DNA of 25,505 bases from positions 1 through 25,505 of the forward strand of contig JAAAJB010000522.1 in assembly GCA_016098155.1 (NCBI GenBank). Reading direction: 5' to 3'. A program made the position numbers and the translations under genes. A model generated the notes under the pieces. That model was not told where the DNA came from. It worked only from the letters and a program-made list of their open reading frames with translations, and did no database searches. Below are positions 4,287 through 25,505 of this stretch, in pieces; position 1 is the stretch's first letter; every line of letters starts with the position of its first letter. The DNA is from Actinomortierella ambigua (lineage: Eukaryota > Mortierellomycota > Mortierellomycetes > Mortierellales > Mortierellaceae).

Positions 4287-7200
4287 CTACAATAATGCAG
4301 GAGCCACCTCACGAACAACAGGTTCGCAGCGTGCGCACAAATGGCCCTCCGTCTCCGCCACATACTTCCAGCAGCGAGGGCACTTGTGCAGGGCCGCCTT
4401 GCGCGCCACCAGCTTGCACGAGCCCACGCGTGGGATCATCACCTCGCGCACAAAGACCTCGTTGTCGCCACCATCCTTGACTCCCTCGACCTCGCTGTCT
4501 TTGACCAACGTCACATCCGACGTGATGAACAGCTTGGCCAACAGATCCTTGTACTCCTCGGCCAGCGTGGCCAGGGCCGTCGACGACTCGTTCGCGGGGA
4601 CGTGCAACTCCAGATCGGCCTCGAGCGAGGACCGGATCATCTTGGCCGTGCGAGCCTGCTCCAGCAACTGGTTAGCCTCTTGGCGCAGGTGCCTCAGCAC
4701 GCGGAAATCCTCGACCAGCGCCTTGTTGTTCCATTCTTCGGGCAGATGCAGCCAACCCGTGCGGAACACAGATGGCTGAGGCGTTGTGAAGCAATCACGG
4801 TAGTGCTGGTAGACTTCCTCGCCGAGATGGGGGGCGAGTGGGGAAAGACTCTTGTTGAAGGCGTTCAGTGTCTATTTCAGAATAGGAAGCAGAGAGGAGG
4901 GAGTATGTGTGCGTGTGTTAGATTTTTTGTCCGCATGGGGGAACGACGAAATAAGGCCAATCCTAACCTAGAAATAAAGAAAAAATAGAAAAAATAAAAA
5001 AAAGACAACAACATACATGGAAAAGAACGGTCTGGATAGCGCGACGCTGCTGGCTCTTCTCGGGATCCGAGTACAGGCTATCCTTGACGACATCCAGATA
5101 CAAGCTGGAGAGTGTCGTGCTCGTCAGGTACTGGAGCTGAGTAAAGACGCGATGGAACATGTGGTCGTCATAGCCGGCCTCGACGGCCTTGCCAAACTGG
5201 TACACCTCGGACAGCATGAACTGGTCCAGCTTGGACAGTTGATCATATTGCAGGCTGTCCCGCTCGTGGAACCCTTGCAGGTTGCCCAGCATGAAGCGAG
5301 CCGTGTTGCGGAACTTGCGCACCGACTCTTGCACCTGTGTCAGGATCGTCTTGCCGATCGCCACATCCTTGGTGTACTCCGACGATGCTGCCCACAGACG
5401 CAACACATCCGTGCCATACGCTGGGTCCTTTTGGAGGTTCTATAAGTCGAGATATAAAGGAGGAGGAACAGGTGTCAGATGATTGTCCAGTCGAATATAT
5501 TCTCTCTCTCTCTTTCTTTTTTCCACTCGTTATTGATCATTCACGCCAAAACATCTGCTCTCACCTTGCCACCAAAGATGACAATCGACGGCTCGACAGT
5601 GTTGCCCACCGACTTGCTCTGCTTGAATCCCTTGGCGTCCAGCAAGAATCCGTGCGTGATCAACGTCGCATAGGGAGCCTTGCCCGTCAAGGCGACGCTG
5701 GTCAGCAGCGACGACTGGAACCATCCACGATGCTGATCACTTCCCTCGCTGTAGACGTCCGCGACATACGGCAGATGCGGCCGAGGCATCTTCTCCTCGA
5801 TCATGGTCCAGCTGGTGCCGCTGTCGAACCACACATCCATGGTATCGTAGCCTCGACGGTACGTGCGTCCATTGTTGCGGTACTCTGGCGCGAGCAGCTC
5901 GTCGGTCGACATGCTCCACCAGGCATCCGTGCCATGTTGCTTGACCACGTCGATGATGTGGCCCACAGACGCATCCGTCAGCAGAGGCTCGTCGGTCTCG
6001 GTATCGTACATGACCGGGATGGGTACGCCCCAGGACCGCTGGCGCGAGATGCACCACTCGGACCGCGACTGGACAAATGCATTCAGACGGCCACGAGCAT
6101 TGTCAGGCAGGATGCGCACTCCCTCGATCGCCTTGAGGGCATCTTCCTTGATCGAGCCGACATTGGCAAACCATTGCGAGGTCGCGCGCAGGATCACGGG
6201 CTTCTTGGTGCGCCAGTCGTAAGGGTACTTGTGCAGATAGTTGTGCTCGTGGATCAGCGATCCCTTCTCGCTCAGCATCTCAAGCACCTTGGCCGTGCCG
6301 TCTCCCTGGACGGCCAACCCTCCCAGCTCGGGGCCGGCCTCGTTGGTAAACTTGCCTAGGTCGTCGACGGGGCAAAAGGCATCGATGCGCAAGGGTAGAC
6401 ACGCCTTGTAATCGTCCATACCGTGGCCGGGCGCCGTGTGCACCAGACCCGAGCCCGAGTCGGCCGAGACATAGTCGGCGGCAATGAATGGCATCGTCTC
6501 ACCCGTCATCGGGTGCTTGTACTTGGATCCTAACAGCTCTGCACCCGTCAGCTGACCCAAAAGCTCGAACTGCGGCATGACCGTGTCCTCGCCTTGCTTC
6601 TTGGCGAACCGTGTGTGCATCTCATCCATGCGCTCGGTCGCGGCCAGGTAAACCTTGTCGGCACCGCCTGTGCTCGCCTTGAACAGCGTGTACGACAACT
6701 TGGGGTGCACTGCCACAGCGCGGTTAGCTGGCAGTGTCCATGGCGTGGTCGTCCATACTACGGCCTCTAACGTTGTTTTGGGCGGTAATAATGAGGCTAA
6801 CTTGGCGGCTATGGTAGTGATTACAATAGAAAAAAAAAGTTGAAACAGGTGAATAAAATGAGTCATTTCCCGTTGGTTCGATTTTACTGAATCCAGATTA
6901 TTATTATTTTTTAAATCATCTCCATATGGAACACTTACATGGTTGATCGGTCTCAAACGCAACCCAAGCCGACCGCGACTTGTGGTCGTCCTTGTACTCG
7001 AGCTCGGCCTCGGCCAGTGCGGTGCGGGACGATGGGCTCCAGTAGACGGGCTTGTTGGCACGGTAGATCAAGCCCTTCTTCATCATCCGATGAAAGACCG
7101 TCAGCTGGCGGGTCTCGTAGTCCTTGTCAAGTGTTTGGTACCCGTTGTCAAAATCGCCCATGATACCGTACGACAGAAAATCCTTCTTTTGGTTCGCGAT

Positions 7201-8103
7201 CGCCTCCAACGCAAACTTGCGGGCTGTCTCGCGCACCTCGGTCGGAGTCAGTGCTGAGACATCGGCAGTGGTTTTTCCATCGGAGGACGATGACGACTTG
7301 TTGGCCTTGAGTGCACTAAGGGCCTTGAGCTCGATGGGCAGGCCGTGGCAGTCCCAACCGGGACGGTAGTCGACCTTGTGGCCCTTGAGCACCTTTTGAC
7401 GGTTGACAAAGTCCTTGATCAGCTTATTGAGCGCGTGGCCCAAATGCAAGTTGCCGTTGGCATATGGTGGGCCGTCGTGCAGGACAAACAGCTCGCCGGG
7501 GTTGTGTTCACGCTTTGGAAAGGGGGAGAGGGGGAGGAGGAGGGGCAATAATTAAGTTAATATCATATTTGAAAGAGAGGCAGGGGCCAATTTCCTTTCC
7601 CACAAACGATTCGAGGCCTGCCGTTCATTTACCTGCCAGCAATACAGCTCCGATGTGCACCGCGGACGGAACTGGGCCTCGACTGCAGCACCACCAGAGC
7701 GCAAGGGAAAGTCTGTCTTGGGAAGGAGGAGGGTGGGTGCAAACGTTTGATCAGGCTTCTCCTTAGGTGCCTTCTTGGCTGCCTTGCCGGTAGCAGCGAC
7801 AGCAGGGTTGTTAGCAGGAGGAATGTTGTTGGTCGTGGAGGCCATGGTGGTTCGAATGGACGTTGAGAATGGTTTTTTTGACGGGAGGGCGTATGGTGCA
7901 GGTGAGAGGCGGGTGTGGGAGCAGAGTGGCGCCTGAGAGGGGTTGGATCGAATGCTGTGTAGTGTTCTTGCAGGTGTCGTTGTGGTCGACGTAAGAGAAT
8001 GATATGTAGTGGTTCGGACAGACACTTGTTGTATCCCGATGGTGCGGTGAAGGGGGACAAGGCGGAGAGTGCCCGAGGTTTTATAGGCGATATGGCCCAG
8101 CAT
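4287..8103 (-). CDS. ISM1: Mitochondrial isoleucyl-tRNA synthetase, five exons, 1098 aa
   Basis: Charges tRNA-Ile with isoleucine, most likely in mitochondria. Exons on the minus strand: 8103-7633, 7512-6939, 6808-5565, 5439-5017 and 4871-4287. All four introns (120, 130, 125, 145 bp) are GT-AG, and joined in phase they give one open frame. The first ~85 residues are rich in Arg/Ser/Thr and end in KKPFSTS, a targeting-peptide style. An alternative downstream ATG gives MASTTNN and could make a non-mitochondrial form. Class I motifs are visible: HLGH at residues 180-183 (HIGH), GWDCHGLPIE shortly after, WTTTPWTLPAN in the editing domain, ISRQRSWGVPIP, and KQSKS at 744-748 (KMSKS variant). The anticodon-binding region follows, and the C-terminus has a zinc site, CPRC at 1068-1071 and CARC at 1083-1086. 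Length is usual for the family. Part of the gene is duplicated as a pseudogene at the left end. Confidence 0.93.
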
Positions 8104-8163
8104 GGTGAGAAACAGAGGATATACTCCTACACCGATCACAAACACTTGCCGCAAGCAGGCAAT

Positions 8164-8180
8164 ACACACACACACACACT
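8164..8180. repeat. Short (CA)n microsatellite
   Basis: A run of about eight CA units lies roughly 65 bp upstream of the IleRS start codon, in its probable leader or promoter. Confidence 0.6.
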
Positions 8181-8719: not shown

Positions 8720-9063
8720 ATGCTAGAGAATCATGGCAGTAATCAAAGCAACATCAGTATGACGTCCATCGACTTGGAAATCAGGCGGTACAGGGCGCTT
8801 ATTGAGGCCAACACGACCGAACCACCGGACAAGAACGAATCTTTTGCATGGTGGCGAACAAACAGGGAGCAACAGCCTATTTTATCAAAGGTCACCCGTG
8901 AATACTTGTCGGCTCTCTCTTCATCCGTGCCCTCGGAGCGACCCATTAGCCTTGCCAACGGTGTCATAACGAAAAAGATCAAAAGAATACTTACGACGGT
9001 GCACTTGTACGTGAAACGTGCGTCATGGCGATCGACTGGGACAAGTCTCAGCAAACCCATCTC
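8720..9063 (+). pseudogene. hAT transposase relic, C-terminal dimerisation domain only
   Basis: The frame reads like the hAT C-terminal dimerisation region: an EIRRYRALIEA lead-in, then FAWWRTN (the conserved WW), PILSKVTREYLSA, the hallmark SVPSERPIS, ANGVITKKIKRI, and TVHLYVK. This follows the family order of WW-x-N, P-L, YL, SVPSER and the final helix. The RNase H-like catalytic core and DNA-binding zinc finger that should precede it are absent from the 500 bp upstream. The frame then runs into unrelated sequence to a stop at 9163. I saw no inverted repeats around it, and nothing ties it to the MITE at 1439-1968 beyond superfamily. Confidence 0.75.
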
Positions 9064-9486
9064 TATACCATGTAGCACAAAGACAGAAGGTGGGCTTCCA
9101 GTAGCAAAGAGGGCATCGATGCAGCACCTACATATGTCCGGGTGGTCGTCAACCTCCCCTTAGAATCGCTCTCAGCCGCCGCCTTGTCGGAAGTAAGAGT
9201 CTTGAATTCGCCTTGTGCCAACACCCCCCCTCCTTCCTCCTCTCTTTTCTTTTCTCATACCATTTAATGTCACCCTGGGAATGCTATACCATTACATGGA
9301 CATCCCTGCTGTTTGTTTCCATGTCCTTCAGATGGCTCAGAAGACAAGGGGGTAGATGCAGACTCCACCAGACTACATTAGCTCAGCACGGACTAGTTCT
9401 TCCAGTGTCTCCTTGTCTCCGTTTTTTTTTACCGATGCCTCCTTTCCCCTCCCCCCTTTTTTTCTTCTCTTTCGACATTCTTGGCG

Positions 9487-9494
9487 TATATAAA
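9487..9494 (+). promoter_or_regulatory. TATA box of the secreted-protein gene
   Basis: TATATAAA after a T/C-rich tract, 257 bp upstream of the start codon. It is conserved in position with TATAAAAA at 1018-1025 in the duplicated copy. Confidence 0.65.
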
Positions 9495-9680
9495 CGGTGC
9501 GCCGGTGCACCCAGACACAGCTTATCCATTCAACACCTTCGATTTGCAACAGCATCCAATCCACTGCTCTTTGAAAACCCTCTTCAACGTAGGTACCATT
9601 GAAGTCACATACAAGAGTGCCAAAACCAAAGCCAAAGCCGAAAACATGTTTTCTTATTCTTCCTTTGTTTCTTGAGAAGG

Positions 9681-9740
9681 GTAAAAACAACACTGATCCT
9701 CACCATACTTCCTATTGCCTATTATTCAAAACAATCACAG
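9681..9740 (+). other. Probable 5' UTR intron of the secreted-protein gene
   Basis: A GTAAAA donor after GAGAAGG and a CACAG acceptor 10 bp before the start codon. The paralogous leader has the matching pair at 1191-1254. Confidence 0.5.
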
Positions 9741-9750
9741 ATTCACACCA

Positions 9751-10122
9751 ATGCGTTTCGTTCCTACACTTGTTCTGCTTGCTCTGCCATCGTTGGCACT
9801 TGCGGCCTTTGATGTGGCTATTACCAAGGCATGCATCAAGTATGCAGGCTCGGATGACATTATTGTCGATGTGTCGTATAGCTGTTCCGGACTCAGAGAC
9901 ATCAACCAGCTCGAGTTGACGAACAACAATAACATGATGGTAGAATTATTTTTCGATGACAAATGCGATGGGAATCGACATGATATCAAATCTATCACGA
10001 TTGTGGGCTTCACCCCACTTAATGTTGGGGATACAATCTCGCTCGACGCTTCTCTTCTTAATTCCGATAATATTTATATTGGCGAGCCTATCTCGTTGTC
10101 TCCAACCATAGTAAACTGCTAG
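9751..10122 (+). CDS. Small secreted protein, 123 aa, function unknown
   Basis: ATG at 9751 opens a 123-residue frame with a classic signal peptide (MRFVPTLVLLALPSLALA). Cleavage is likely after about residue 18-19. The mature part is about 105 residues, acidic, with five cysteines (KACIK, YSCSG, DKCDG and the final NC are visible), no transmembrane segment and no motif I recognise. The repeated alternation of hydrophobic and polar residues suggests a beta-rich fold. It has its own TATA box and a probable leader intron. A paralogue at 1267-2170 shares the signal peptide, VDVxYSC, VGDTIS and other blocks but is disrupted. Such short, cysteine-containing, duplicated secreted proteins are often effector-like in fungi. 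That is a guess, not shown here. Confidence 0.75.
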   Translation: MRFVPTLVLLALPSLALAAFDVAITKACIKYAGSDDIIVDVSYSCSGLRDINQLELTNNNNMMVELFFDDKCDGNRHDIKSITIVGFTPLNVGDTISLDASLLNSDNIYIGEPISLSPTIVNC

Positions 10123-10129
10123 GTTTCTA

Positions 10130-10890
10130 TTTTCTTTTAAGAAAAAAAAAGGTATATTTTTTATATCCTGATGCTATGTTGGTACAGAAGATACGCCATG
10201 TGGCTACTGGGACCCACGGATTTCGGGGGGAAATGAAAATAAAAAGTTTCGAAAGCATACATAGAGCAACATTGGTGACATGGAGCGAACCAGATACAAA
10301 AAAAGGCGGTGGAGGGAGAGGGACTAAAGGCTACGCTGCGGGCCATCGTTCCATTCTTGCTAGGCCACAATCTCACGAGCAGGTCTTTCTTGATCCTATC
10401 TGCCAGCTGCTTTCTAACCGTTACTTTGCGTGGCACGGGGAGCGTTGAATTATCCTCCCCTCACGCCGCAACCTCAAAGACTGCTGTTCTGCATGGTCTG
10501 TCTCGCAACGCGGTCTACCTCAACCCAGAGTCAGCAGTCCACTCGAAGAGCTTTGCTTTAGTGCAATAGGATATGGAAATGGACTCACGATCTACCCAAC
10601 TGGATCCGCCAGGATACATGCGAGAGGAGGCGGCTCAACGCGAGACTAGTTCTTTGAATCATGCATTTCGCAACCATTCCTATATATTATACCCTGGACT
10701 CCCTCATCCTTTTTCGCCATTCACAGCATCATTCAGCATGTCTCACGACTCACGAGTTCCATCATTGATGGCGTTCTTCAATACAGCTATAGATAATGTT
10801 ATAGAACGAAAGTAGCGAATCCGGGGCCTAATTCTATGACGTAACAGAACTACTGGCCGGCGCCACTTTCAGAATCCTACCCGGAGGTAA
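10130..10890. other. Duplicated non-coding flank
   Basis: Positions 10220-10650 match 2280-2660 of unit A. A TATA-like run (TATATATTATA) lies near 10680-10692 and is followed on the plus strand by a short frame (10738-10815, MSHDSRVPSLMAFF). No credible gene could be assembled on either strand. Confidence 0.35.
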
Positions 10891-10895
10891 GACAT

Positions 10896-10913
10896 AGGTG
10901 TTTGCGTACACCT
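10896..10913. other. Perfect 6-bp stem hairpin downstream of the Fanzor gene
   Basis: AGGTGT and ACACCT flank a 6-base loop, 100 bp beyond the Fanzor stop codon on its 3' side. A weaker TGGC/GCCA hairpin lies near 10853-10864. Guide RNAs of TnpB and Fanzor proteins are commonly encoded in this 3' flank, but nothing here proves one. Confidence 0.3.
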
Positions 10914-11012
10914 CAATGTGAAAAATGAGAGGAGTGAAAGCAAGAGAAAACTAGATAGCAATCGACCTTCATGACACATGCCATGATCTTGAGCGAGAGT
11001 GTCTTTAGCCAT

Positions 11013-14000
11013 CTACACAGTTGGCCCTTCGTCAACATCCATGGTGCTTGCCTTGACTGTGCGTGCTGTGGTAGAACGTGCAACCTTCTTGCCTGTGGTC
11101 GTTTTGGTCCGCGTGTCCTGTGCTTCTTGGTTGACCTGCTGGTCGTCATGCCGACGTTTTCGACTGCCGCTAGCCCGAGGGTCATCCCTGGTCGGGCCAC
11201 CGCCACGCTCTAGCCATGGGAAATGGCCGTCCTTATCCACAGGATGCAGGTACAAGGGACGCTCTTGTTTCTCGACGTGGCTACGCAGGATGTTGGCCAT
11301 ATTATGGCCTCCCATCACGTCGCGGTGCATGCTCTTTCGACACGTCCCACAGTACAAACGCCGGATGGACTTGGTCTGCGCAACAAACTCGTTGCATGTG
11401 GGGCATTTTTTGGACGTGTAGTATTCTTCGACCCCTACTACAAGGTACCCAAGAGCTCGGGCCTGTGAAAACAATGCAAGAGGAGCATGACGGTTAGCAG
11501 AGCAGGAAAGCAGTTTAAATAGCAACCTTAGATTAGTCGATGGATACCTACTTTCTGCACGAAAAAGGCCTGGAAGCTACTATGCAAGGATGTCATTCTC
11601 GAGGTGCTCTTAAAGTCTCCCATGCCAATACCAATGACGACTTTGTTTTCAACCGCCTTCTTCTCGCCTATTGTTCCCCCAACCATCCGAAGCAGAGAGT
11701 CGGCCAGACGATGAAACTCTTGGGCTCTTGCGGACTTTGCCATGTTCTTGTACCTTTTGAACTTGAACTGATGACCGTTGTAGAACTTGTCCAGATGTGC
11801 CCTGTTCGCCGCGCGGACTCTGCAATGGCCAGCGATGCTGGCATTGGGGCCACGAAGTGGGGGGAGCGATGACTCGATCGTGTTAATGCACAGGGTCTCA
11901 GATAGCGTTGTCTCCGCGCTGCTGGTGGAAGGTTGGTTGATTCGGGGTGCTGTTATCGACTGAGCGCTGGAGGTGGAGTGACGCGGAAATGGCTTCAAGT
12001 CGACACCCTTTTGCTTCTCCATCCAACTTCGGTGATGTAGCGAAGGCTGTGCAACCGCCTTTTGCTTGGCGACTAGGTTGATGAACCGCCGACGTCCCGC
12101 ACGACTAGTGCGCCTCTTGCCTTTGCCGCTCCCTCTCTTGCGCCGGCCTCGGCTGCCGCGTCGTCTCTTCTTCTTGCGACGCCCCTTGTGGATCCGCGGG
12201 TTCTTGTCCGGCGGAAGGTGCGCGTAGGCTCCTACTACAAAGGCCTGGCCCAGGTCTATGCCCAAGTAGGATACTTTGTCATGCTCGTCGGATGAGCACC
12301 CAAGCAGACGCTCAACATCGTCCATGGTCTTGAAAACGTTGCGCACCTCCGTCAAGTAGTCGCTCGTGCCGGCGGTGGTGGTGAGAAGCCTGTCTGGCAG
12401 CAAACTTGGATCGTATCTCTTGTACTTGACTGAGTTAAGCTCCCGAAGCTTAAACGCAAGTAGTTGCAGCTGGTAACCATCCGTGCGGATTGATCCGCGT
12501 AAAAAGTAGCCTTTTTCTTCGTAAGACTGTGGATCGGACTCTCGGTCACGGAGGGTATTGATGTGAGACCGGATCTCAGAGCGTTCAACAACCTTGACCG
12601 CGGCGGCGATACCAGCATCTTTCCTCGCACGTCCCTTAAGGCGCTCGCCAGTTGTTGTTTTTGGATCCACAGGTGCGATGAGACGCTTGATGAACAGTCC
12701 TGGTGGTCGGAGTGGCAGCCAACAATTTGTGAGATAAGTCTGAGCCATTGGACGCGATTGGTCGGAGTATCCAACTAGGTGCTGAAGGAAAGGAAGAAGA
12801 TCAGCTCGCTTGTGGAAAAAGGCTGCTAATTCAAGCTCTGTAAAGGTCATAAATCCATGTTCTTCGGAAGAGAGGGGAGCGAGACACCACGGATGACCAA
12901 GGATGGTGTTTGCATCGACAAATATTTGGATCGCTGGCCTTCGAGCTGTTAGATCGACGGAGTGATTGCTTGAGAGCTTTCCCTTTGTAATCATAGTCTC
13001 GATCTATGCAAAAAGGGGGGGGGGTGAACGAAGTCAAGTAATTGAGGAAAGGATAGATACCTTCTCCGAGCAACAACATACATAGCAAGAGACAGCACAG
13101 ATGATACTTTAACTTTTCCGACAATGTATCGGCTCCTTTCTTATAGTGTCTTGTAAGTTCAGCAGAGAGCTGTGAAGACACGGATCTCACCAAAAACGTC
13201 GGCGTGTACTCTTTGATGGTTCTAGACAACTGCCCATTTGTCAACGCATCCTTCTCCAGGTGGCCGAAGTCCTGTAAGCGACGGACAAAGGCTTTGATGG
13301 CTGCTGCGACCTCGCCCTTATTTGATATATTTCCAGAGTACAGGTACATTAGCACACCTCGGATGAACGGGGCATTAGATCCGTCATCCGTACCATCTTC
13401 AATGGAGCCGCTGTTCTCATCCGTCTCTTGGCCGAGTCTTGGACAGAGACTGTCTAGTATGGCTTGGTCTTCAGGGCCGAGAGTTGTCACAGGAAGAAGA
13501 GGCCGAGGATCGTCGGGCGAGCTCCGTGGGTAAAAGACATCCTCGAGAAACAGACCGATGAGTTGCTGAGAATATATTTTTGTCTCCCAGGCTACCTTCA
13601 CCGCGCCGCGGATGCATTCTATTACCGATTTGGTAATTCGGTCCTCGTCGAATTCAATAGAGGTGGCTGCGGTCTGGATCTCTTCCTTGATGGCGGTGCG
13701 GATGTTTTTGGACATTCTCCCAGGATTCAAGGTGACGATCGGGTGTTCAAAACCCAGCTCGGACATGACCTTTTTTCGTTCGAATGGGTCTGCGCCATCG
13801 ATTACCGGTCTCACGGGTGTCGGCTTCTTCGCGGGATGTGGTTGTATAGGCTTCTCGGTTCCTTCCTTCCAGGGCTTCAGGACGTATTGTAGCGAGATAT
13901 CTGGCGGCGGGCGCTCTTCTGTTGGTTCGTAGCGGACCTTTGGGGTGTATCTGCGACGATATTGATGGGCCCTCGCTGGGTTGGGATGGTCAACTGCCAC

Positions 14001-14058
14001 AAAGGGATTGGTGCGCTCGGGCACCGTATCGCGCCTCGACTCTTCCCCGTGCGCGGCC
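11013..14058 (-). CDS. Fanzor (eukaryotic TnpB-like RNA-guided nuclease) with N-terminal linker
   Basis: Exons: 14058 to about 13061 or 13108; about 12945 or 12968 to 11552; and 11462-11013. The last intron (11463-11551, 89 bp) is GT-AG with a CTAAC branch site. An ATG at 12994 could also start a separate Fanzor. Motifs in order: a family block EKGYFLRGSIRTDGYQLQ; RuvC-I YLGIDLGQAFVVGA with Asp at about 12254-12256; a very basic stretch (12086-12190); NLVAKQKAV; VVIGIGMGDF, where TnpB would have the RuvC-II Glu; VEEYYTSKKC, with the displaced Glu typical of Fanzors (about 11424-11426); a zinc ribbon CPTC...CGTC; and RuvC-III RDVMGGHNMANI (Asp at about 11319-11321). After the ribbon come SRKRRHDD, a likely nuclear signal, and a low-complexity tail. 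Family proteins cut DNA guided by an RNA. Activity of this copy is inferred. It is joined by phase-matched introns to the XPG-like exons upstream. Confidence 0.88.
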
Positions 14059-14164
14059 CTATTGACAACGCACACAATGATACAGACGTATCAAGAACTG
14101 ATCAGCATTTACCCTTCTTGTCTTAGCACGGTATGTGAACATGAATATAAAGGATGTCTCATAC

Positions 14165-15325
14165 CTCTTGTCTCTTCTGGATTTGTATTGCTCCTTCTTA
14201 AAAACACCAAAGGCAACCATGAACTGGGACATTCTCTTGGAAAGTGATGCATACGCATCCTCCACGGAGTTTGCATCACCATCAGCAGGAACAGATGATC
14301 TGACAGTCTGCTGGAGTCTGACGAAAACGTTGATCGCATCAGCATACGAATGCTCTGTCCATTGCGTAATCTCCTTGTCTGTCTGCCGCTTGACTTGAGG
14401 ATGGGCGAGGTATTGCTGAACGATACCGACTTCTCCTGCACAGTGAAAGCAGAAAAGAGAATGAGGAGTGAGAGCCTTGGTGTGAGAGACAAAGAAATAA
14501 AAGTATGAAATAAACTAGAAGGCCGAACTAGATATTTACCTTCATTTCCAGCAGGCAAGCCCTTGATGATCTTGAGATTTGTCTCAAACGCCAGATGCGG
14601 GATGTTGGGCACGTAGTCGTTGTCACTTAGGATAGCGAGGGCCGTGAGTTGTATGGCAGACAAGCCAAGAGCTTCGAGAACGGCGGTCTTCTCGTACGGG
14701 ACATATCGTCGCGATCTGTAGGAGCCGAGCGGGCGCCAGAGGACGGGAATAGTGCTGTAGAAGAGCAGGTCGCTATCGCAGGAAACGACCGCGTCCTCTG
14801 GCTGGCACTCTGCAGCGATTCGGACGTCCGCCTCCGTGTCGCACAGGACAACGTGGTACCCTTTTCCTGCCATGAAACGAACGAATGAGCGACGTTGCTC
14901 CAGAGGCCAGTGGAATGCCTGTCGAAGGGACTTGTTGGCGTTTGTGATATGATGCTTGCGTATTCTTTGTCGAGCGTCAAGACGCGTCTCAAGAATGCGA
15001 ACGCTCTCGTCGGCCTTCAACAGGGCTTCCGGCGGGTCAGGTTGCGGAGGGTGCATGTCTGCTCTTTCTCGGAGGATGGGTGACCATCGACATAGATGTG
15101 CATGTCTTCCTTCTAACCCATTCGGAGTAACAACTGCTCAAGTTTTGCATGGGCTTCATCAAGATTGGACCCGGAGCCATAAAAGTGGCGGATTGGTGTG
15201 TTGTGCGTCGCGCACAAATCAACGAGCATTCTGGAGTTGTCCGAACTGAAGGAGATTCTGTCCTGTGCTTAAGATTTAAGGCGTCCCTTCTTTCGTAGGG
15301 CCTTGAAAGCATTTTTCACCCCCAT
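14165..15325 (-). pseudogene. XPG/FEN1-like nuclease domain, 5' half of the Fanzor locus, apparently damaged
   Basis: Exons 15325-14540 and 14435-14165 splice (introns 14436-14539 and 14059-14164, phases 1 and 2) into the linker-Fanzor frame, so both domains belong to one gene. The start MGVKNAFKALRKKG resembles the XPG N-terminus. RMLVDLCA supplies the first acidic residue and MHIYVDG a core strand. CDTEADVRIA and SCDSDLL are the XPG-I acidic cluster, and SDNDYVPNI sits in a helix-hairpin region. The ancestral frame has stops at 15269-15271 (TAA) and 15113-15115 (TAG) and a missing base near 15024-15030. Two short GT-AG introns (15263-15319, 57 bp; 15059-15117, 59 bp) would restore an open frame but would remove the MGVK helix and the YVDG strand. 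An internal ATG at 15056 is a third option. XPG relatives cut flapped or branched DNA. Confidence 0.72.
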
Positions 15326-15359
15326 ATTGATGCGTGGTTGCTGGATGGCACTTTCCTAA

Positions 15360-15375
15360 GGCACTGGTTCGAATC
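15360..15375. repeat. 16-bp sequence shared with the MITE
   Basis: GGCACTGGTTCGAATC here is identical to the complement of 1631-1646 inside the hAT MITE. It lies 35 bp upstream of the XPG-Fanzor start codon. It contains a B-box-like core, but the flanks do not fold as a tRNA. Confidence 0.4.
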
Positions 15376-15420
15376 AGAACTGGCGTAGCTTGCATGGGTC
15401 GCCACTTTATCACATGACGA

Positions 15421-15714
15421 CTACCGCGGTACAGGGCTCGGCGGTATACCGTGACCGCCAAGTTCTGGAGTTGACGGTAACATAGTTGTCGGTAACAGAC
15501 ACTCATATGCGTACAAGAAGTAGGGGATATTCCTAAGGGTAGCCGACACATCAAAGTTGTTGACCGTTTTGGCAACGGCGATCTGATATCGATGGAACAT
15601 CTGGCTCACATTGTGCTCGTTAAGAATGTAATTGTGAACCGTAAAGGTCACAGGATCCAAGAACAGTTTCGCTTCCAGGCCACTGTCCGAGGAGAGACTC
15701 GAACTTTGACCCAT
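15421..15714 (-). CDS. Hypothetical protein fragment, 97 aa
   Basis: An ATG-started frame on the minus strand with ordinary protein composition (DPVTFTVHNYILNEHN, FHRYQIAVAKTVNNFD, LRNIPYFLYAYECLLP). It ends about 95 bp before the XPG-Fanzor start codon on the same strand. No motif recognised. It may be an exon of a gene whose other parts are lost, or a chance frame. Confidence 0.35.
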   Translation of the reverse strand: MGQSSSLSSDSGLEAKLFLDPVTFTVHNYILNEHNVSQMFHRYQIAVAKTVNNFDVSATLRNIPYFLYAYECLLPTTMLPSTPELGGHGIPPSPVPR

Positions 15715-17394: not shown

Positions 17395-18255
17395 CGGTGT
17401 GATATTTGTACAGGGGCAGATGCTGTATAAATCCGACTCAATGGGTCAAAGAGTGGACTGCAAGTTCATATTTTGAGACAAGATTAGATTTTATTTCTCG
17501 TGCTCTCGCAGGGACCTTAATCGGGCTTTCGCATCCTCATGGCCCTGTTCAGCAGCCTTGCTGTACAACGCTACTGCCTTCTTAAGATTCTTCACCACTC
17601 CGAGGCCTCTTTCATACATTCGACCAAGGCTAAATGTCCTCTGTAGGCTCCATGCTTGTACAATAAGACAACATCGGAGAGATCGGTGTCTGTTCGGCGG
17701 CTGCGGTAGTAAGAACTAGTCAGCCATGCGATGTGAGAAAATGCATTTGGCACACTGCCTTCATTTGCCTCCCGAAACAAACGAAGAGCCTCATCACTAT
17801 CAGGGTCCACCGAGAGGCCAAGCTCATACATCGAGCCGAGGTTGAATAGCGCTGGTAGGTGATGCTGGTCAGCGCTCCGACTATACCATAGGAATGCCAA
17901 CTGATCGCTCTGTTCAACTCCTTTGCCTAATCGTATAGTCTTCCAACGCCGTATTGTGCCTCGGCGTTCCCTTGTTCGGCTGCTTTGGTCAACCACTTGG
18001 ACCGACTCCTTGGCCACTCATATACATCAATCCAAGAGACCTTTGTGCCCTGACATGGCCTTGCTCTGCTGCCATGGTGTACCACTTGAGTGCTTCGACC
18101 TTGCTCTCTTCAACACCGTCACCATTCTCATGCATCAAGCCAAGGTAGAATTGAGCAGCCTTGACCCCTTGCTCTGCTGCCTTGGTGGACCATTGGCCTG
18201 TAATGGAACTCCGACCGTACTTTAACGAAATCCCCTGCTCGACTGCCTTGGATCG
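17395..18255 (-). pseudogene. Relic of the lost C-terminal tail of the first kinase-Sel1 gene
   Basis: Downstream of the stop at 18261 the sequence keeps matching the C-terminal 280 residues of the second kinase-Sel1 gene (22329 to about 23110). Examples are FLWYSRSADQHHLPALFNLGSMYELGLSVDPDSDEALRLF (here with one change from the partner), a shortened tail without FEKRGPND, and the final repeat and 3' flank (17395-17520 matching 22226-22345). It contains frame changes and stops, for example near 17930-18010 and in the final repeat near 17590. So the truncation of the first gene is recent enough for the former tail to remain readable. Confidence 0.75.
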
Positions 18256-18260
18256 ACTGC

Positions 18261-21200
18261 TTACTCTTGCTGTAACATCAGCATAAGACTGTCTTGTGCT
18301 GTTTGATGACCTTGCTCAGCGGCTTTCTTGTACCACTTTACTGCATCCGGGACGCTCTGCTCGGTTCCTTCCCCGTTCTCATACATCCAACCTAGGTAGT
18401 CTTGCGAATCAGCATGACCCTGTTCTGCCGCCAAGGTGAACCACTTAAACGCCTCATCGTAGCTCTCCTCAACCCCTCGACCCTCTCTGTACATACAGCC
18501 GAGGACGTGGTGCGCTTCTAAGATCCCTTGCTCGGCTGCCATTGTGTACCATTTGACCGCCTCGTTTGCGATCTGCTCAATCCCTTCTACACGATCGTAG
18601 ATTCGTAATACACGATCGTAAATTCGCCCAAGTTGGTATTGTGCAAGGACATGACCTCGCTCTGCTGCTAAGGTGTACCACTTGAATGCGTCGATCTCGC
18701 TCCTCTTGCCACCGTACCCATTTTGATGAATCACGCCAAGGTGGAATTGGGCAGCTGTGATCCCTTGCTCAGCAGCCTTGGTGAACCATTGGACCATCTC
18801 TGACTTCAACCAATAGAGTTTCTGTCTCGGTATCCCCTGCTCGGCTGCCTCGGTGAGCCACTTGACAGCCTCCTCGTTACTCTGCTTAGCACCGCGTCCT
18901 TCCTTGTACAAAAAGCCAAGGCCGAATTGCGCCTCCTGAATGCCATGTGCTGCAGCCTTCGTGAACCACTTGAACATTTCGATGTCGCTCAGCTGGATTC
19001 GTCGACCTCGCTCTGCCGTCCATTCAGAGTTGTGCTGCACTGGCAATATCCCTTGCTCAGACGCTTGGACATAGCACCTGATCGCCTCTTCATGACTCTG
19101 TTCAACTCCTCGGCCTTCTTCATACATCCCACCAAGTTCGAATAGCGCTGCCTGTATCCCTGCCTCTGCTACTTCAGTGAACCACTTCACTGCCTCGACA
19201 TCGCTCTGATCGACTCCATGCCCTTGCTGGAACATCAGCCCGAGGCTATACTGTGCTGCTTCATGCCCTTGCTCAGCGGCTTCCGTGTACCACTTCACTG
19301 CATCTGAGGCGCTCTGCTCAGCCCCTTCTCCATTCTGGTACATCCAGCCTAGGTAATCTTGCGCATCGGCATCTCCATGTTCTGCCGCCATGGCGAACCA
19401 CTTGAGCGCTTCGTCGTAGCTCTGCTCAACTCCTCGACCTTCTCTGCACATACAGCTGAGCTCGAATTGCGCTTCGAGGATCCCTTGCTCGGCTGCCTTG
19501 GTGTACCATTTGATCGCATTAGCACTGCTCTGCTCAACCCCCTCTCCGCGATCGTACATCCGGCCAAGGCAGTCTTGTGCAAGGCCATGACCTTGCTCTG
19601 CTGCCATGGTGTACCACTTGGCTGCTTCCACCCTGCACCCTTCAACACCGTGACCATTCTCAAGCATCGAGCCAAGGTGGAATTGAGCAGCCTTGATCCC
19701 GTGTTCTGCTGCCTTGGTGAACCTTTGAATTGTCTCTGACTCCATCAAAGAATAGTATAGCACTGTAGAAACCCCTTGGTCTGCTGCCATGGTGAGCCAC
19801 TTGACTGCCTCATCGTCACTCTGCTCAACACTGCGCCCTTCGTTGTACATAAAACCAAGGTCGAATTGTGCTGCTTGGTTCCCTTGCTCAGCTGCCTTGG
19901 TGAGCCATTTGACTGCCAAGGCTGTGCTCTGCTCAACCCCTTGTCCTTTGTCGTACATTAAACCAAGACGAAGTTGTGAAGGGACACTGCCTTGTTCTGC
20001 CGCCAGAGTGAGCCACTTGACCGCCTCGGTATCGTTCTTCTCAACCTCTCGTCCATCCCACAACATCATCCCAAGAACATGTTGTGCTTCATTATTCCCC
20101 TGTTGTGCAGCCATTGTGAGCCACTTGAGTGCTTCCTGGTCGCTCTGTTTCACCCCTCGACCAAGAGAGTACCATTGCCAAAGCGTGTACTGTGCGTCGC
20201 TTTGCCCTTGATCAGCTGCTCGGTGGTACCACGTCGATGCCTCATCTTCGTCCCACCTGACACCACGACCATCCGCATACATGCGGCCAATCTGATATTG
20301 AGCCGACGCACTGCCTCCATCTGCCGCTCGCAGATACCATGACGCAGCCTTCTCATCGGTAGCATCGACACCTTGGCCTTGATCGTACATCTTGCCAACA
20401 CGAAGCTGCGCCACTACTGCTCCATGCGATGCCGCCAGTCGATACCACCAGAAGGCATCCTTGTCACTCTTGTCGACACCGTGGCCATGATCGTAGATCC
20501 ATCCGAGGAACAGTTGTGCCTCGACACTTCCTTGCTTCGCCGCCATGCACATATATGCCACCATATCATCGTCCGTCGATGGCAATCGACCAACATGCTG
20601 GCCGGGCTTCTTTTCGTGAGCGGCTTCCAATGGGTCTTCGGGGTTCCCGTGCGTCTCCAGTTGGCCACCTGTCTCATCGGACTGGTTGAAACTGAAGTCA
20701 AGAAATTTTCCTTCATCATCATCATCATCCTCATCTTTGTCGGTGCCCTCCTCGTCTGGCTCGACATGGATCTGTACTACCTCACTTGCGTCTGGACGAT
20801 GATCAGGATCCTGGTCCCAACATTGCTCTGCCCACGTACGATACTCGGTCGGAGTGTCATCTGGAAAGGTCTCGCGCTCACCTCGGCTGACAGCGAGAGC
20901 GACAAAGGCGTCGTTGTCCTGGTCTTTGAACGGTCGCGCACAGTTGGCCGCCATCTCCCACATCACCACGCCGAGTGCATACACATCCGACTTGGCCGTG
21001 TACTTTGGCTTCTTAGCGATTAGGAGCTCTGGCGCCACCCATCGGAGTGTCCCTGCGAGCCCAGCCCTCGACTGACTGCTTCTCAATGATCGGAGAGTCA
21101 TGGACTTGATCTGCGCCAGTCCAAAGTCTGCCAGCTTGACCTCCATGTGCTTGGTAAGGAGCACATTGGCACTTTTGAGGTCACGATGGAGGATTCCCTC

Positions 21201-21697
21201 CTGATGGATGAACGCCAGACCTTGAGCAATCTCACTCGCGAGCCGTCTCTTGGTCATCCAGTCACTGACTACGAGATGTCCCTTGTCAATGGCGTGCTGA
21301 AGACTGCCGTTCTCGGCCAGCTCCATGAGGAGATAGGTGCAGCCGTGCTCTTCGTGTGTTCGGTAGAACTGGATGATGTGGCGATGGCGAAGTTTTTGGA
21401 GTAACGACGTCTCACTCAGGATGTTCTGTTGGGCAAGCTCGGACTGGCCGAGGAAGAATTTCTTGACAGCACATGGCTGGTTTCCCCAATGAGCCTTGTG
21501 GACTGAGCCAAAGCCACCCGATCCTAGCAACTTTCCCAAGACAAGAAAGGAATGTTGAAGTGGAGCCTTGAAAAGAACAGAATATCAGGGGTGATAGAGT
21601 GAGTATCCATATTCGCTTAGATGCACGCAGACGACGCGTGTGATAGCTTTGGTGTTGTCCATACCGTGGATGAGTCTTGAGCCTGAACTGAAGTCAT
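18261..21697 (-). CDS. Protein kinase (TKL-like) with about twenty Sel1 repeats, 1112 aa
   Basis: Exon 1 is 21697-21665 (MTSVQAQDSST). A GT-AG intron (21567-21664, 98 bp) leads in phase 0 to 21566-18261, which begins APLQHSFLVLGKLLGSGGFGSV. All kinase hallmarks are present: a Gly loop (GSGGFG, residues 26-31), AVKK with the ATP-binding Lys near 46, HRDLKSANVLL (catalytic Asp at about 140), DFG at 158-160, the APE motif as VAPELL, and RPDASEV at the end of the domain (near 270). An acidic linker (DEDDDDDE) leads to Sel1 repeats of about 36 residues (pattern AAxxGxxxAQxxLGxMYxxGxGVxQSxxEAxKWxxxA). Sel1 repeats are protein-binding helix pairs, so this is probably a cytoplasmic signalling kinase with a scaffold tail. 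It stops early compared with its tandem partner (LMLMLQQE, then stop). Confidence 0.88.
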
Positions 21698-22225
21698 TGA
21701 GCTGAAGAAGAAAGGATGGGGAGAATGAGGAAAAAAAAATGGACGAGATGGTGGGAATGGGTTTGAGGAGGTGTGGCAGTGCCTCATGTGGTTTTGGCCA
21801 ACGTCACGTGGTGACACACTAGGAGGCATGCATGTGAGTGACATGCCCACATGCGGAGTCGCAAAAATTATTGCTTGGAGGCCATTTGCCTAGAACGAAG
21901 GGAGGCACTCTGCTTGGTGGCTGGCGGCTTACCTGGCATTCTTATTCTTCCCTATCCAAGTTCGAAGGTGGCTGTCCAACAAATATGCAACAGGTCCTGC
22001 GAATACGACATTCAGGATCTCTCACTGCTTAAGCGTTCTTGCGTCCCGAGGTACACTGTCATCAACAGCGAACTGACCCTGTCATGTTTCTAGTATTCTT
22101 TCTTCTATGGTCTGTGTACTCGCTCGCGTGAGCTTCCTTGGAGTATGACTTGAACAACCTTAGCTGATCGCAGTAAAGTGGGACAGCAACGCGTATGAAA
22201 AAAATGAGGGCGAAAGCGAAAGGAT
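21698..22225. other. Intergenic region between the tandem kinase genes
   Basis: On the minus strand, a pyrimidine-rich tract ending TTCTTCTTCAG lies directly before the start codon of the first kinase gene and is probably its core promoter or leader. The rest (21840-22200) has only short frames and nothing recognised. Confidence 0.5.
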
Positions 22226-22345
22226 TGCACGATGGAATGATATTTGTACAGGGGCAGATTCTGTATAAAACCGACTCAATGGGCTAAAGAGTGCACCGCA
22301 AGTTCATATTTTGAGACAAGATTCGATTTTATTTCTCGTGCTCTC
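22226..22345. repeat. Duplicated 3' flank of the kinase-Sel1 genes
   Basis: Matches 17395-17520 closely (shared GATATTTGTACAGGGGCAGA and TTCATATTTTGAGACAAGAT), showing that the two kinase genes arose by tandem duplication including their 3' flanks. On the minus strand an AATAAA polyadenylation-like signal overlaps the stop codon of the second gene (22328-22333). Confidence 0.75.
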
Positions 22346-25300
22346 GAAGGAACCCTAGTCGGGCTTCCGCTTCCTCATGGCCCTGTTCAGCAGCCTTGCT
22401 GTACCATGCTATTGCCTCCTCAACACTCTTCATCACTCCGAGGCCCCTCCCATACATTCGGCCAAGGTTGTATTCTGCCGCTGCATATTCTTGGTCGGCC
22501 CCTTGTTGGTACAGCAAGACAACATCTGAAGGATCATTGCTCGCTTGTCTGCAGAGATACTCAGGGCTAGTCAACCATCTAATGTGTGAGCGTGCATTCG
22601 GCACACTCTTATCATTTGGCCCCCGCTTCTCAAATACCATCCTGAACAAACGAAGAGCCTCATCGCTATCAGGGTCCACCGAGAGACCAAGCTCATACAT
22701 CGAACCGAGGTTGAATAGCGCTGGTAAGTGATGCTGGTCAGTGCTCCGACTATACCATAGGAATGCCAACTGATCGCTCTGTTCAACTCCTTTGCCTAAA
22801 TCGTACAGCCTTCCAACGCCGTATTGTGCCTCCGCATTCCCTTGTTCGGCTGCTTTGGTCAACCACTTGAACGCCTCAACACAGTCCTGCTCGACTCCTT
22901 GACCACTCATATACATCAATCCAAGAGCCTTTTGTGCCCCGACATGGCCTTGTTCTGCTGCCATCGTATACCACTTGAGTGCTTCGACCTTGCTCTCTTC
23001 GACACCGTCACCATTCTCATGCATCGAGCCAAGGTAGAATTGAGCAGCCCTGACTCCTTGCTCTGCTGCCTTGGTGAACCATTGGACTGTCTCGGGATTC
23101 TGACCGTACTTGCACGAAATCCCCTGCTCGGCTGCCGCGGTGAGCCACTTGACAGCCTCGTCGTCACTCTGCTCAGTGCCGCGTCCTTCCTTGTACAAAA
23201 AGCCAAGGCCGAATTGCGCTTCCTGAATGCCATGTGCTGCAGCCTTCGTGAACCACTTGAACATCTCGATATCGCTCAGCTGGATTTGTCGACCTCGCTC
23301 TCCTGTCCATCGAGAGCCGTACAGCACTGGCGATACTCCTTGCCCAGACGCTTGGACATAGCACCTAACCGCCTCCATATGGTTCTGTTCAACTCCTCGG
23401 CCTTCTTCATACATCCCACCAAGTTCGAATAGCGCTGCCTGTATCCCTGCCTCTGCTGCTTTAGTGAACCACTTGACTGCCTCGACATCGTTCTGATCGA
23501 CACCATGCCCTTGCTGGAACATCAGTCCAAGGGTATATCGTGCGAGGGGATGCCGTCCCTCAGCGGCCATTGTGTACCACCTCACTGCATCCTGCATGCT
23601 CTGCTCAGTTCCTTCTCCATTCTGGTACATCCAACCTAGGTAGTCTTGCGAATCGGACCATCCTTGTTGTGCCGCCAAGGTAAACCACTTGAATGCCTGG
23701 TCGTTGCTCTGCTCAACCTCTCGTCCCTCTTTGAACATACAGCCGACCTCGTGTTGTGATTCTGTGTCCCCTTGCTCGGCTGCCTTGGTGTACCATTTGG
23801 CCGCGTTGGAGGCGCTCTGCTCAGCTCCTACCCCATTCTTGTACATCCAACATAGGTATTTTTGCGAAACGACGTGTCCTTGCTCTGCCGCCTCGGTAAA
23901 CCATTTGAGTGCTTCATCAACGCTCTGTTCGACATCGCGTCCTCCATAGTACATGCAGGCAATGTTGAACTGCACTTCCTGACCCCCTCGCTCTGCTGCC
24001 TTGGTGAACCACTTGACCGCTATAGCCTTGCTTTGCTCGACCCCTTGTCCTTTGTCGTACATTGAACCAAGGCGAATTTGTGAAGGGACAATGCCTTGTT
24101 CTGCCGCCAGAATGAGCCACTTGACCGCCTCGGTATCGTTGTTCGCAATCTCTTGTCCATCCCAGTACATCACTCCGAGATCATATTGTGCTGTTGCATT
24201 GTCATGCTGTGCTGCCATGCGGAGCCACTTGAGTGCCTCCTCGTCGCTCTGTTCTACCCATCGACCAAGAGAGTACCATTGCGACAGAGTGTACTGTGCG
24301 TCGCTTTGACCTTGGTCAGCTGCGCGGTGGTACCATCTCGATGCCTCCTTTTCGTCCGGCTTGACACCACGACCGCCCGCATACATGTGGCCAATCTGAT
24401 ATTGAGCCGATGCACTGCCTCCTTCTGCCGCTCGCAGATACCATGACGCAGCCTTTTCATCGCTAGCATCAATGCCTTGGCCTTTGTAGTACATCTCGGC
24501 AACACGAAGCTGTGCCACTACTGCTCCATGCGATGCCGCCAGCCGATACCACCAGAAGGCATCCTTGTCACTCTTGTCTACACCGTGACCATGATCGTAG
24601 ATCCATCCGAGGAACAGCTGTGCCTCGACACTTCCTTGCTTCGCCGCCGTGCACATGTGTGTCACCACATCGTCGCCTGTTGATGGCAATCGACCAACAC
24701 TCTGGTCGGCCTTCTCGTTGTAGGTGACCTCCGCTTCCGAACCACCTTCGTGTTCGCCGTGAGTCCCCAGGCGGTCAACTGTCCAATCAGACTGATCGAG
24801 GACAACAAAGTCGTCATCGTTGTCATCGCTGTCGCTGCTCTCTTTGGTGGGCTCGACATGGATCTGGATCACCTTGTTTACGTCTGGACGATGGATTGGC
24901 TCCTGATGCCAGCATCGCTCTGCCAACAAACGATATTCGGATGGGGTGTCCTCTGGGAAGGTCTCACGCTCACCTTGGCTGACAGCCTGAGCGACATCGG
25001 CATTGCTGGCCATGTCTTTGAAGGGTCGCGTACAGTTGGCCGCCAACTCCCACATCACTACGCCGAATGCGTACACATCCGACTTGGCCGTGTACACTGG
25101 GTTCTTAGCGAACAGGAGCTCAGGCGCAGCCCATCGGAGTGTCCCTGCAAGTCCAGCTTTCGACTGAATGCCTCTCGTCGGTGCGGAAGTTATGGGCTTG
25201 ATCTGCGCCAGTCCAAGGTATGACAGCTTAACCTCCATGTGCTTGGTGAGGAGCACATCGGCACTCTTGAGGTTGCGATGGACGATCCCTTTTTGGTGAA

Positions 25301-25505
25301 TGAAGGCGAGACCTTGAGCAATCTCACTCGCGAGCCGTCTCTTGGTCGCCCAGTCATCGATGGCGAGATGGTTGTTGTCAATGGCGTGTTGAAGGCTCCC
25401 GTTCTCGGCCCACTCCATGAGGAGATAGGTGCAGCCGTGTACCCTGTGTATTCGGTAGAACTGGATGATGTGGCGATGGCGAAGTTTCTGGTGGAGCGCG
25501 ATCTC
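22329..25505 (-). CDS. Kinase-Sel1 repeat protein, probable pseudokinase, 5' end outside the window
   Basis: The frame is open from the right edge to TAA at 22329 (about 1058 residues in the window), so the Gly loop and ATP-binding Lys lie outside. The visible kinase domain is colinear with the neighbour's but has HRNLKSADVLL in place of HRDLKSAN and LSYLGLA in place of LADFGLA. Both the catalytic base Asp and the metal-binding Asp of DFG are therefore gone. The APE region (AAPELL) and RPDVNKV are kept. The Sel1 tail is longer than the neighbour's, about 22 repeats, with an atypical insert (FRMVFEKRGPNDKS) before the last two, and ends YSKAAEQGHEEAEARLGFLREHEK. It probably works as a scaffold or allosteric partner, possibly of the active kinase encoded next to it. 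That pairing is an inference. Confidence 0.85.
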   Translation of the reverse strand, partial: EIALHQKLRHRHIIQFYRIHRVHGCTYLLMEWAENGSLQHAIDNNHLAIDDWATKRRLASEIAQGLAFIHQKGIVHRNLKSADVLLTKHMEVKLSYLGLAQIKPITSAPTRGIQSKAGLAGTLRWAAPELLFAKNPVYTAKSDVYAFGVVMWELAANCTRPFKDMASNADVAQAVSQGERETFPEDTPSEYRLLAERCWHQEPIHRPDVNKVIQIHVEPTKESSDSDDNDDDFVVLDQSDWTVDRLGTHGEHEGGSEAEVTYNEKADQSVGRLPSTGDDVVTHMCTAAKQGSVEAQLFLGWIYDHGHGVDKSDKDAFWWYRLAASHGAVVAQLRVAEMYYKGQGIDASDEKAASWYLRAAEGGSASAQYQIGHMYAGGRGVKPDEKEASRWYHRAADQGQSDAQYTLSQWYSLGRWVEQSDEEALKWLRMAAQHDNATAQYDLGVMYWDGQEIANNDTEAVKWLILAAEQGIVPSQIRLGSMYDKGQGVEQSKAIAVKWFTKAAERGGQEVQFNIACMYYGGRDVEQSVDEALKWFTEAAEQGHVVSQKYLCWMYKNGVGAEQSASNAAKWYTKAAEQGDTESQHEVGCMFKEGREVEQSNDQAFKWFTLAAQQGWSDSQDYLGWMYQNGEGTEQSMQDAVRWYTMAAEGRHPLARYTLGLMFQQGHGVDQNDVEAVKWFTKAAEAGIQAALFELGGMYEEGRGVEQNHMEAVRCYVQASGQGVSPVLYGSRWTGERGRQIQLSDIEMFKWFTKAAAHGIQEAQFGLGFLYKEGRGTEQSDDEAVKWLTAAAEQGISCKYGQNPETVQWFTKAAEQGVRAAQFYLGSMHENGDGVEESKVEALKWYTMAAEQGHVGAQKALGLMYMSGQGVEQDCVEAFKWLTKAAEQGNAEAQYGVGRLYDLGKGVEQSDQLAFLWYSRSTDQHHLPALFNLGSMYELGLSVDPDSDEALRLFRMVFEKRGPNDKSVPNARSHIRWLTSPEYLCRQASNDPSDVVLLYQQGADQEYAAAEYNLGRMYGRGLGVMKSVEEAIAWYSKAAEQGHEEAEARLGFLREHEK

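Follow-up and report, generated by a model that had tools for sequence, protein, structure and literature searches.

The Fanzor nucleases described in the available parts of PMC10432273, PMC10711439 and PMC11423790 are single-nuclease proteins, and a 2023 survey gives Fanzor1 proteins of up to ~800 residues (PMC10711439). In fungi, Fanzor1 genes are known from MuDR-like elements with terminal inverted repeats (TIRs) (PMC3627910), and the guide RNAs of Fanzor1 lie at the right end of the element, extending ~15 nt beyond the target-site duplication (PMC10711439). Here we describe a gene of Actinomortierella ambigua (phylum Mortierellomycota) that is predicted to join a Fanzor1 to a second nuclease of the Rad2/XPG type. 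The gene is DFQ27_006905, and its annotated product, P0001 (1185 amino acids), is encoded on contig C471. This contig of 25,505 bases, part of a genome of 33.8 Mb in 846 contigs, is the window to which coordinates refer below.

An earlier, sequence-only reading of this stretch had proposed that one protein joins an XPG/FEN1-type nuclease and a Fanzor. That proposal is supported by cross-species protein models, conserved catalytic residues, correlated divergence of the two halves and a fold model. We estimate a probability of about 0.5 that the gene belongs to a mobile gene family of Mortierellomycota whose members combine an XPG-type 5' nuclease, a linker of ~150 residues and a Fanzor1 with a 3' guide scaffold, and that carry out a guided cut followed by processing of the ends. 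The fusion, the conservation of both active sites, the fold, the multiplicity and decay typical of mobile genes and a structured RNA at the 3' side are supported by the sequence comparisons and structure predictions described below.

The XPG–Fanzor gene and its relatives

The five exons of the annotated gene reproduce P0001 exactly, letter for letter. The features of the locus are as follows.

11013..15325, minus strand: XPG–Fanzor gene copy DFQ27_006905, with the annotated coding part at 11013–15056
15057..15325, minus strand: remnant of the XPG N-region (MGVKNAF..., MLVDLCATHN, IYVDGHPSSEK) with in-frame stops and a break in the frame, from comparison with P0002–P0004
14540..15056, minus strand: exon, XPG I-region (CDTEAD, SCDSDLLFY, SDNDY)
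14436..14539, minus strand: GT-AG intron
14165..14435, minus strand: exon, C-terminal part of the XPG domain
14059..14164, minus strand: GT-AG intron
13191..14058, minus strand: exon, true linker and beginning of the Fanzor REC lobe, its frame open and family-like to ~13107
13004..13190, minus strand: annotated GT-AG intron of 187 bases, which removes ~26 residues retained in relatives
11552..13003, minus strand: exon, Fanzor REC/WED (GSIRTDG) and RuvC-I (YLGIDLGQAF)
11463..11551, minus strand: GT-AG intron
11013..11462, minus strand: exon, displaced E (EEYYTSKKC), C4 zinc ribbon, RuvC-III RD and basic tail

Three of these introns (14436–14539, 14059–14164 and 11463–11551) had been recognized in the sequence-only reading and have the GT...AG borders given there, but the fourth junction, the intron at 13004–13190, had been overlooked. 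The XPG-I motifs it listed (CDTEAD, SCDSDLL, SDNDY) all fall within the XPG exon, and its Fanzor motifs are likewise present, namely the RuvC-I D, the displaced E (EEYYTSKKC), the C4 zinc ribbon and the RD, together with a Pfam match to Cas12f1-like_TNB (E 1.7e-11). The linker is much shorter than the ~400 residues then proposed: the true linker has ~150, and the remainder aligns with the Fanzor REC/WED lobe. The proposed start at 15325 (MGVKNAF...) is correctly placed in the XPG N-region, but its frame never reaches the frame of the XPG I-region.

A single search, for which the joined window protein was the query, yielded 48 proteins, P0001 included, from 7990 scored candidates. The named sources are Actinomortierella, Gryganskiella, Linnemannia, Podila, Mortierella, Dissophora, Entomortierella, Benniella, Haplosporangium and one Umbelopsis; the eight genera other than Actinomortierella and Umbelopsis we take to be Mortierellomycota. 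Forty of the 48 proteins were aligned (alignment A2; P0006, P0007, P0011, P0012, P0041, P0044, P0045 and P0047 were omitted). The XPG I-region and the RuvC/TNB region are both covered in 23 of the 40, contrary to the possibility that homologues always carry the halves as separate genes, and in 15 of the 40 all four regions are covered to at least 80%. Only P0046 has the XPG I-region with less than 30% of RuvC; apart from the four proteins with little of the XPG I-region that are considered below, the remaining aligned proteins are intermediate. The near-complete members have ~1170–1360 amino acids. Structure prediction recovered both an XPG fold and a REC/WED/RuvC/TNB fold.

A standalone XPG nuclease gene and a neighbouring Fanzor gene might have been merged by gene prediction, as the linker differs between gene models and one half is missing from some predicted relatives. 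We consider this very improbable, since both halves occur in the same order in those 23 of 40 proteins, which come from nine genera and bear several locus-tag prefixes. Moreover, an open exon of the window covers linker and REC lobe without a break and is connected to the XPG exon by an in-phase intron. The linker is also partly conserved (KPWK in the consensus), and the halves diverge together: pairwise distances in XPG correlate with those in REC/WED (r 0.75) and in RuvC/TNB (r 0.69), with 0 of 5000 permutations reaching either value, and the correlation within the Fanzor half, between REC/WED and RuvC/TNB, is close to these at 0.76. Trees of the parts disagree in several branches (e.g. P0009 and P0016), so that some exchange or misplacement is possible.

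The nuclease half is supported by sequence comparison as a predicted 5' nuclease of the Rad2/XPG type (Exo1/FEN1-like). The window exon scores below threshold with Pfam XPG_I (19 bits, cut-off 24.9); the family profile matches archaeal FEN1 (1.2e-12), Rad2 (1.3e-11) and XPG (1.5e-8), well beyond chance. In the fold comparison the top rows for the XPG domain are 15–16% identical to Exo1 and human FEN1. Nine positions of the family profile align with conserved FEN1/Rad2 residues, whose roles we take to be catalytic. In the numbering of P0016, and counted among alignment rows with a letter at the position, these are D35 (18/19), D78 (23/23), K85 (23/23), R92 (24/25), E163 (29/29), D165 (30/30), D182 (30/32), D184 (32/32) and D232 (34/34). 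K85 and R92, which stand 7 and 14 residues after the second Asp, align with the K and R of 1a76 and presumably serve as the arch Lys/Arg.

The mean p-distance of the XPG domain is 0.62 (17 members), so this conservation does not reflect recent identity. A catalytically idle domain, kept as a module for binding DNA or flaps, appears quite improbable. In the window copy only the I-region of the nuclease is left, the N-region being lost, and P0037 carries N at one metal-binding position (182); yet in 14 of 15 near-complete members the nine positions are kept at this distance, as are all twelve catalytic positions when the three of the Fanzor half are included, and of the 11 fully conserved columns among 294 in the XPG domain (at least 15 letters) six are catalytic positions (D78, K85, E163, D165, D184 and D232).

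The Fanzor half carries its three catalytic positions as D877 (40/40), E1063 (32/34) and D1097 (30/31). The pattern D-X(125,275)-[TS][TS]XX-C4 zinc finger-RD, which is the Fanzor1 motif (PMC3627910), is found in 30 of the 48 proteins, including P0001 (X=249), and in none of 48 shuffled ones; seven of the 18 proteins that fail it are labelled partial. The TDG motif reported in the WED domain of Fanzor1 (PMC10711439) is largely kept, with T in 38, D in 32 (N in the other 7) and G in 38 of 39. The displaced Glu, E1063, is assigned by its location immediately ahead of the zinc ribbon, where E541 of SpuFz1 appears to stand as well. In RuvC-I the D-x-G of the DPG motif is present in 39 of 40 proteins, with P in only 3 of 40; DPG is not universal, because SpuFz1 itself coordinates metal through D383 and N385 (PMC10432273).

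A hairpin at the 3' side of the gene

Between the stop codon and the insertion edge of the gene copy lies a stretch with strong predicted folding.

10808..10876, minus strand: conserved hairpin RNA, candidate omegaRNA/reRNA scaffold
10781..10807, minus strand: variable sequence right after the hairpin, putative guide position

Compared with shuffled sequences, 10801–11012 has a z of −2.9 and 10801–10900 a z of −5.0, with 0 of 200 shuffles folding as well. No excess folding is found in the adjacent 10901–11000 (z −0.3) and 11013–11112 (z +1.5), and the hairpin stretch has the lowest z among 1018 distinct 100-nt stretches on both strands. A homologous hairpin follows the Fanzor copy on C771 (z −6.3). 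The conserved block ends in CACTTTC and the sequence beyond varies from copy to copy, as would be expected of an element edge and of a guide alike.

A hairpin pattern drawn from the window, C771 and similar stretches matches 24 places in the genome; the reversed pattern matches 2. Three of the places, all outside the set from which the pattern was drawn, lie downstream of a Fanzor match on the same strand, at a distance of at most 400 bases: C66 (hairpin 41145 after Fanzor 40764), C84 (54758 after 54510) and C230 (30737 after 30640, where the Fanzor match is weak, E 6e-4). By an arithmetic estimate, about 0.01 such same-strand placements would be expected by chance. A further hairpin match, C64:2034, lies 1.6 kb downstream of another Fanzor match. 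We regard the hairpin as a candidate guide-RNA scaffold, placed where one would be expected.

On contig C2 (L036), an XPG fragment on the minus strand lies between two plus-strand hairpins, at 322–390 and 2258–2324.

The position of the hairpin also bears on what the XPG domain might do. Instead of acting on a DNA break, the domain could act on RNA or R-loops, either trimming a guide-RNA precursor or cutting the displaced strand at the R-loop junction. To mature from the mRNA, a hairpin RNA that follows the coding sequence would have to be cut on its 5' side, and enzymes of the FEN1 family act on 5' flaps, RNA flaps included. The related TnpB is reported to process its own mRNA (PMC10278001). 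However, described Fanzors cut as ribonucleoproteins (RNPs) and an XPG domain is not mentioned for them in the available parts of PMC10432273, so that an extra nuclease seems unneeded for maturation, and we think a role on RNA or R-loops unlikely.

Copies in the genome and surroundings of the window gene

The family start MGVK... is found at 15325, as in P0002–P0004, and is followed in frame by stops at 15269–15271, 15113–15115 and 15017–15019. With its annotated start at 15056, P0001 lacks the initial part of the nuclease. The stops and the frame break in the N-region indicate that the window copy is broken, while the family is not. At the fourth join P0001 reads ...TPTFL|IETMITK..., whereas relatives run on with LVRSVASQLSAELKRHYK...LSEK; since the relatives continue there and the window frame is open and relative-like to 13107, the join at 13004–13190 drops residues that belong to the family.

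Elsewhere in the same genome the family is represented by dispersed pieces, many with stops, giving 61 matches to the Fanzor exon and 23 to the XPG exon (window counted). At the edge of contig C171 (L001:1–945) an uninterrupted frame covers the N- and I-regions of XPG with the catalytic motifs kept, and is cut by the contig end. On C40 (L047) and C103 (L048), pieces of XPG and of the middle of Fanzor are nearly adjacent on one strand and resemble internally deleted copies; the XPG match on C103 is weak.

Two features mark the limits of the window copy.

10800..10801, no strand: insertion edge; two C599 loci are homologous as far as 10800
15338..15503, no strand: left portion of an inverted-repeat element of ~290 bp found dispersed in the genome (TIR AGTGTTTGTTACCGACA), either left end of the gene-bearing element or its neighbour

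The flank 9052–10800 recurs on contig C599, twice in part, and this homology, which includes a shared leucyl-tRNA synthetase flank, stops abruptly at 10800, which places the right edge ~210 bases past the stop codon. On the left the inverted-repeat element comes within 13 nt of the XPG start codon, a position that fits a non-autonomous derivative of an XPG–Fanzor element. Its TIR is present on the left only (15487–15503); around the window copy a right TIR was not found, and a target-site duplication was looked for there and not found. Since the left end alone is shared, we set aside the inverted-repeat element as a proven parent. The ~290-bp element is low-copy and possibly of a non-autonomous MuDR type, and its copy on C735 has a 9-bp duplicated flank, as judged by eye.

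These surroundings raise the possibility that the XPG domain is an accessory of transposition, excising or joining ends, with the Fanzor serving retention and any processing of guided cuts incidental. The copies are dispersed and decayed in the manner of transposons, the window copy lies 13 nt from an element with terminal inverted repeats, and a Pfam scan of 10 open reading frames of the window found no transposase family. Against this, Rad2/XPG enzymes are not known to act as transposases, and we judge this role even less likely than one on RNA or R-loops.

The remainder of the window holds leucyl-tRNA synthetase-like genes in tandem on the minus strand (3–767 and 5541–8175, by Pfam). In view of these genes, a long terminal repeat retrotransposon was rejected as the source of the repeat 10305–10800 / 2351–2743, and the repeats are read as parts of a duplicated gene locus. 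Two large genes at 17592–25505 on the minus strand encode a protein kinase domain and 17–18 Sel1 repeats, and a Fanzor copy on C145 also adjoins similar DNA and a kinase frame, as judged by eye. No tRNA or known RNA was found in the window.

Proposed mechanism and comparison with known systems

In the mechanism that we propose, the Fanzor RNP would cut DNA that matches the sequence beside the element, such as an allele from which the element is gone or in which it never inserted, and the 5' nuclease tethered to it would resect or trim the 5' ends or flaps of the guided break. Repair might thus be steered to homologous copying, by which the element would be retained or spread. A guided cut and end processing by one protein is a reasonable supposition. 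Exo1-type enzymes resect 5' ends. The ends left by SpuFz1 are 5' overhangs, but those of other Fanzors are blunt or 3' (PMC10432273). The tethered nuclease could thus make a guided break a substrate for recombination. The more specific proposal, of a two-nuclease RNA-guided homing enzyme that makes a guided double-strand break, resects it with its own Exo1/FEN1-type domain and has its guide RNA at the 3' edge, is a tentative one.

A number of observations weigh against the reading of a mobile, guided cut-and-process family. A hairpin after every copy was rejected in view of the region downstream of the C64 Fanzor copy, in which no significant fold was found (z −1.67). Fourteen of the 24 hairpin matches lie on contigs in which no Fanzor was detected (C225, C843, C45, C318, C580, C24, C97, C494, C837, C72, C313, C325, C443 and C477), and five others are not within 500 bases downstream of one on the same strand; those on C112, C334 and C2 and the second on C771 are distant or on the opposite strand. 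These hairpins could be non-autonomous copies, or they could stem from relatives that escaped detection. On C145, which is outside the model, a match just past the Fanzor scores 17.7 bits (E 0.1) and so does not stand out from antisense and other matches at 16–18 bits. In the two hairpin alignments 90.1% (A6, 13 sequences) and 87.2% (A7, 9 sequences) of cells are paired, with two and three pairs, respectively, changed on both sides. The covariation score is modest, being reached by 48 of 500 shuffles for A6 and 6 of 500 for A7, and the rows were picked from 20 extracted for a gap-poor alignment, that is by visible similarity, so the covariation is supportive and not decisive.

On the protein side, the family profile finds no Fanzor among solved chains at E<=1, and beyond the XPG family matches only a zinc-ribbon segment of LaTranC; the family is assigned to Fanzor by its fold, its motifs and Pfam TNB. 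The relatives are deposited protein models, and intact here means intact as a model. In 4 of the 40 aligned proteins (P0033, P0034, P0042 and P0048) RuvC/TNB is present with less than 30% of the XPG I-region; in these the XPG domain may be dispensable, or the models truncated. The window copy itself is, judged from its sequence, a decaying member of a mobile gene family. It is colinear with the C165 copy over 11721–15132 at 89.8% identity, and the substitutions between the two by codon position are near neutral in the Fanzor exon (27/36/35) and in the linker/REC exon (29/27/34), while third positions are mildly overrepresented in the XPG exons (13/16/26 and 3/5/10). Introns, of which the comparison covers three, have changed to a degree similar to the exons (7/104, 10/106 and 8/103). 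From the even codon positions and the like rates of introns and exons we read mostly neutral decay. Finally, both the resection step and the action of the XPG domain on the products of the cut are hypothetical.

If the reading is true, a 'cut-and-resect' editor has evolved across a fungal phylum, in which guided cutting is coupled to end processing by evolution. This would bear on how cutting by TnpB and Fanzor benefits their host transposons, and as the two activities are separable in one protein, that question would become testable. Such a fusion would also provide a natural model for editors in which repair is shifted toward homologous recombination, with the near-complete proteins (P0002, P0003 of Linnemannia exigua, P0004 of Podila verticillata, P0016 of Mortierella sp. 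GBAus27b, P0021 and others) as starting points.

The proteins are already in public databases, mostly as hypothetical proteins, and two entries carry the Pfam pair XPG_I and TNB (P0027 and P0028); the novelty therefore lies in the recognition of the fusion and in the evidence for it. We found no paper pairing Fanzor with XPG or with Mortierella in the open-access literature, the coverage of which is incomplete and does not show absence from print. In the available text of the three Fanzor papers, 'fused' or 'fusion' occurs 0 times (PMC10432273), 3 times (PMC10711439) and 0 times (PMC11423790), in passages that concern protein tags. Among viral contigs, none matched the A2 profile, and the three matches of the A4 profile are weak and involve just the zinc-ribbon end of the query.

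In comparison with the Fanzor1 proteins SpuFz1, GtFz1 and PpFz1, the family adds an N-terminal domain of the XPG/Exo1 type and a linker, neither of which is mentioned for the solved Fanzors in the available parts of their descriptions, and the ~1170–1360 amino acids of its near-complete members exceed the ~800 residues of the longest Fanzor1 proteins (PMC10711439). Like PpFz1 of Parasitella, it represents a fungal Fanzor1 with an acquired extra domain; however, the FRI of PpFz1 is a small RuvC insert that binds cyclophilin, whereas here a whole nuclease stands at the N-terminus (PMC11423790). Unlike the Rad2/XPG nucleases FEN1, Exo1 and Rad2/XPG, the nuclease domain of the family is fused to an RNA-guided nuclease and has no known role in host repair. 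The family resembles TnpB and the OMEGA systems as an RNA-guided nuclease of mobile elements with a guide that probably derives from the 3' edge of the element, and it differs from them in being eukaryotic and intron-containing, in its displaced Glu of the Fanzor type and in its second nuclease.

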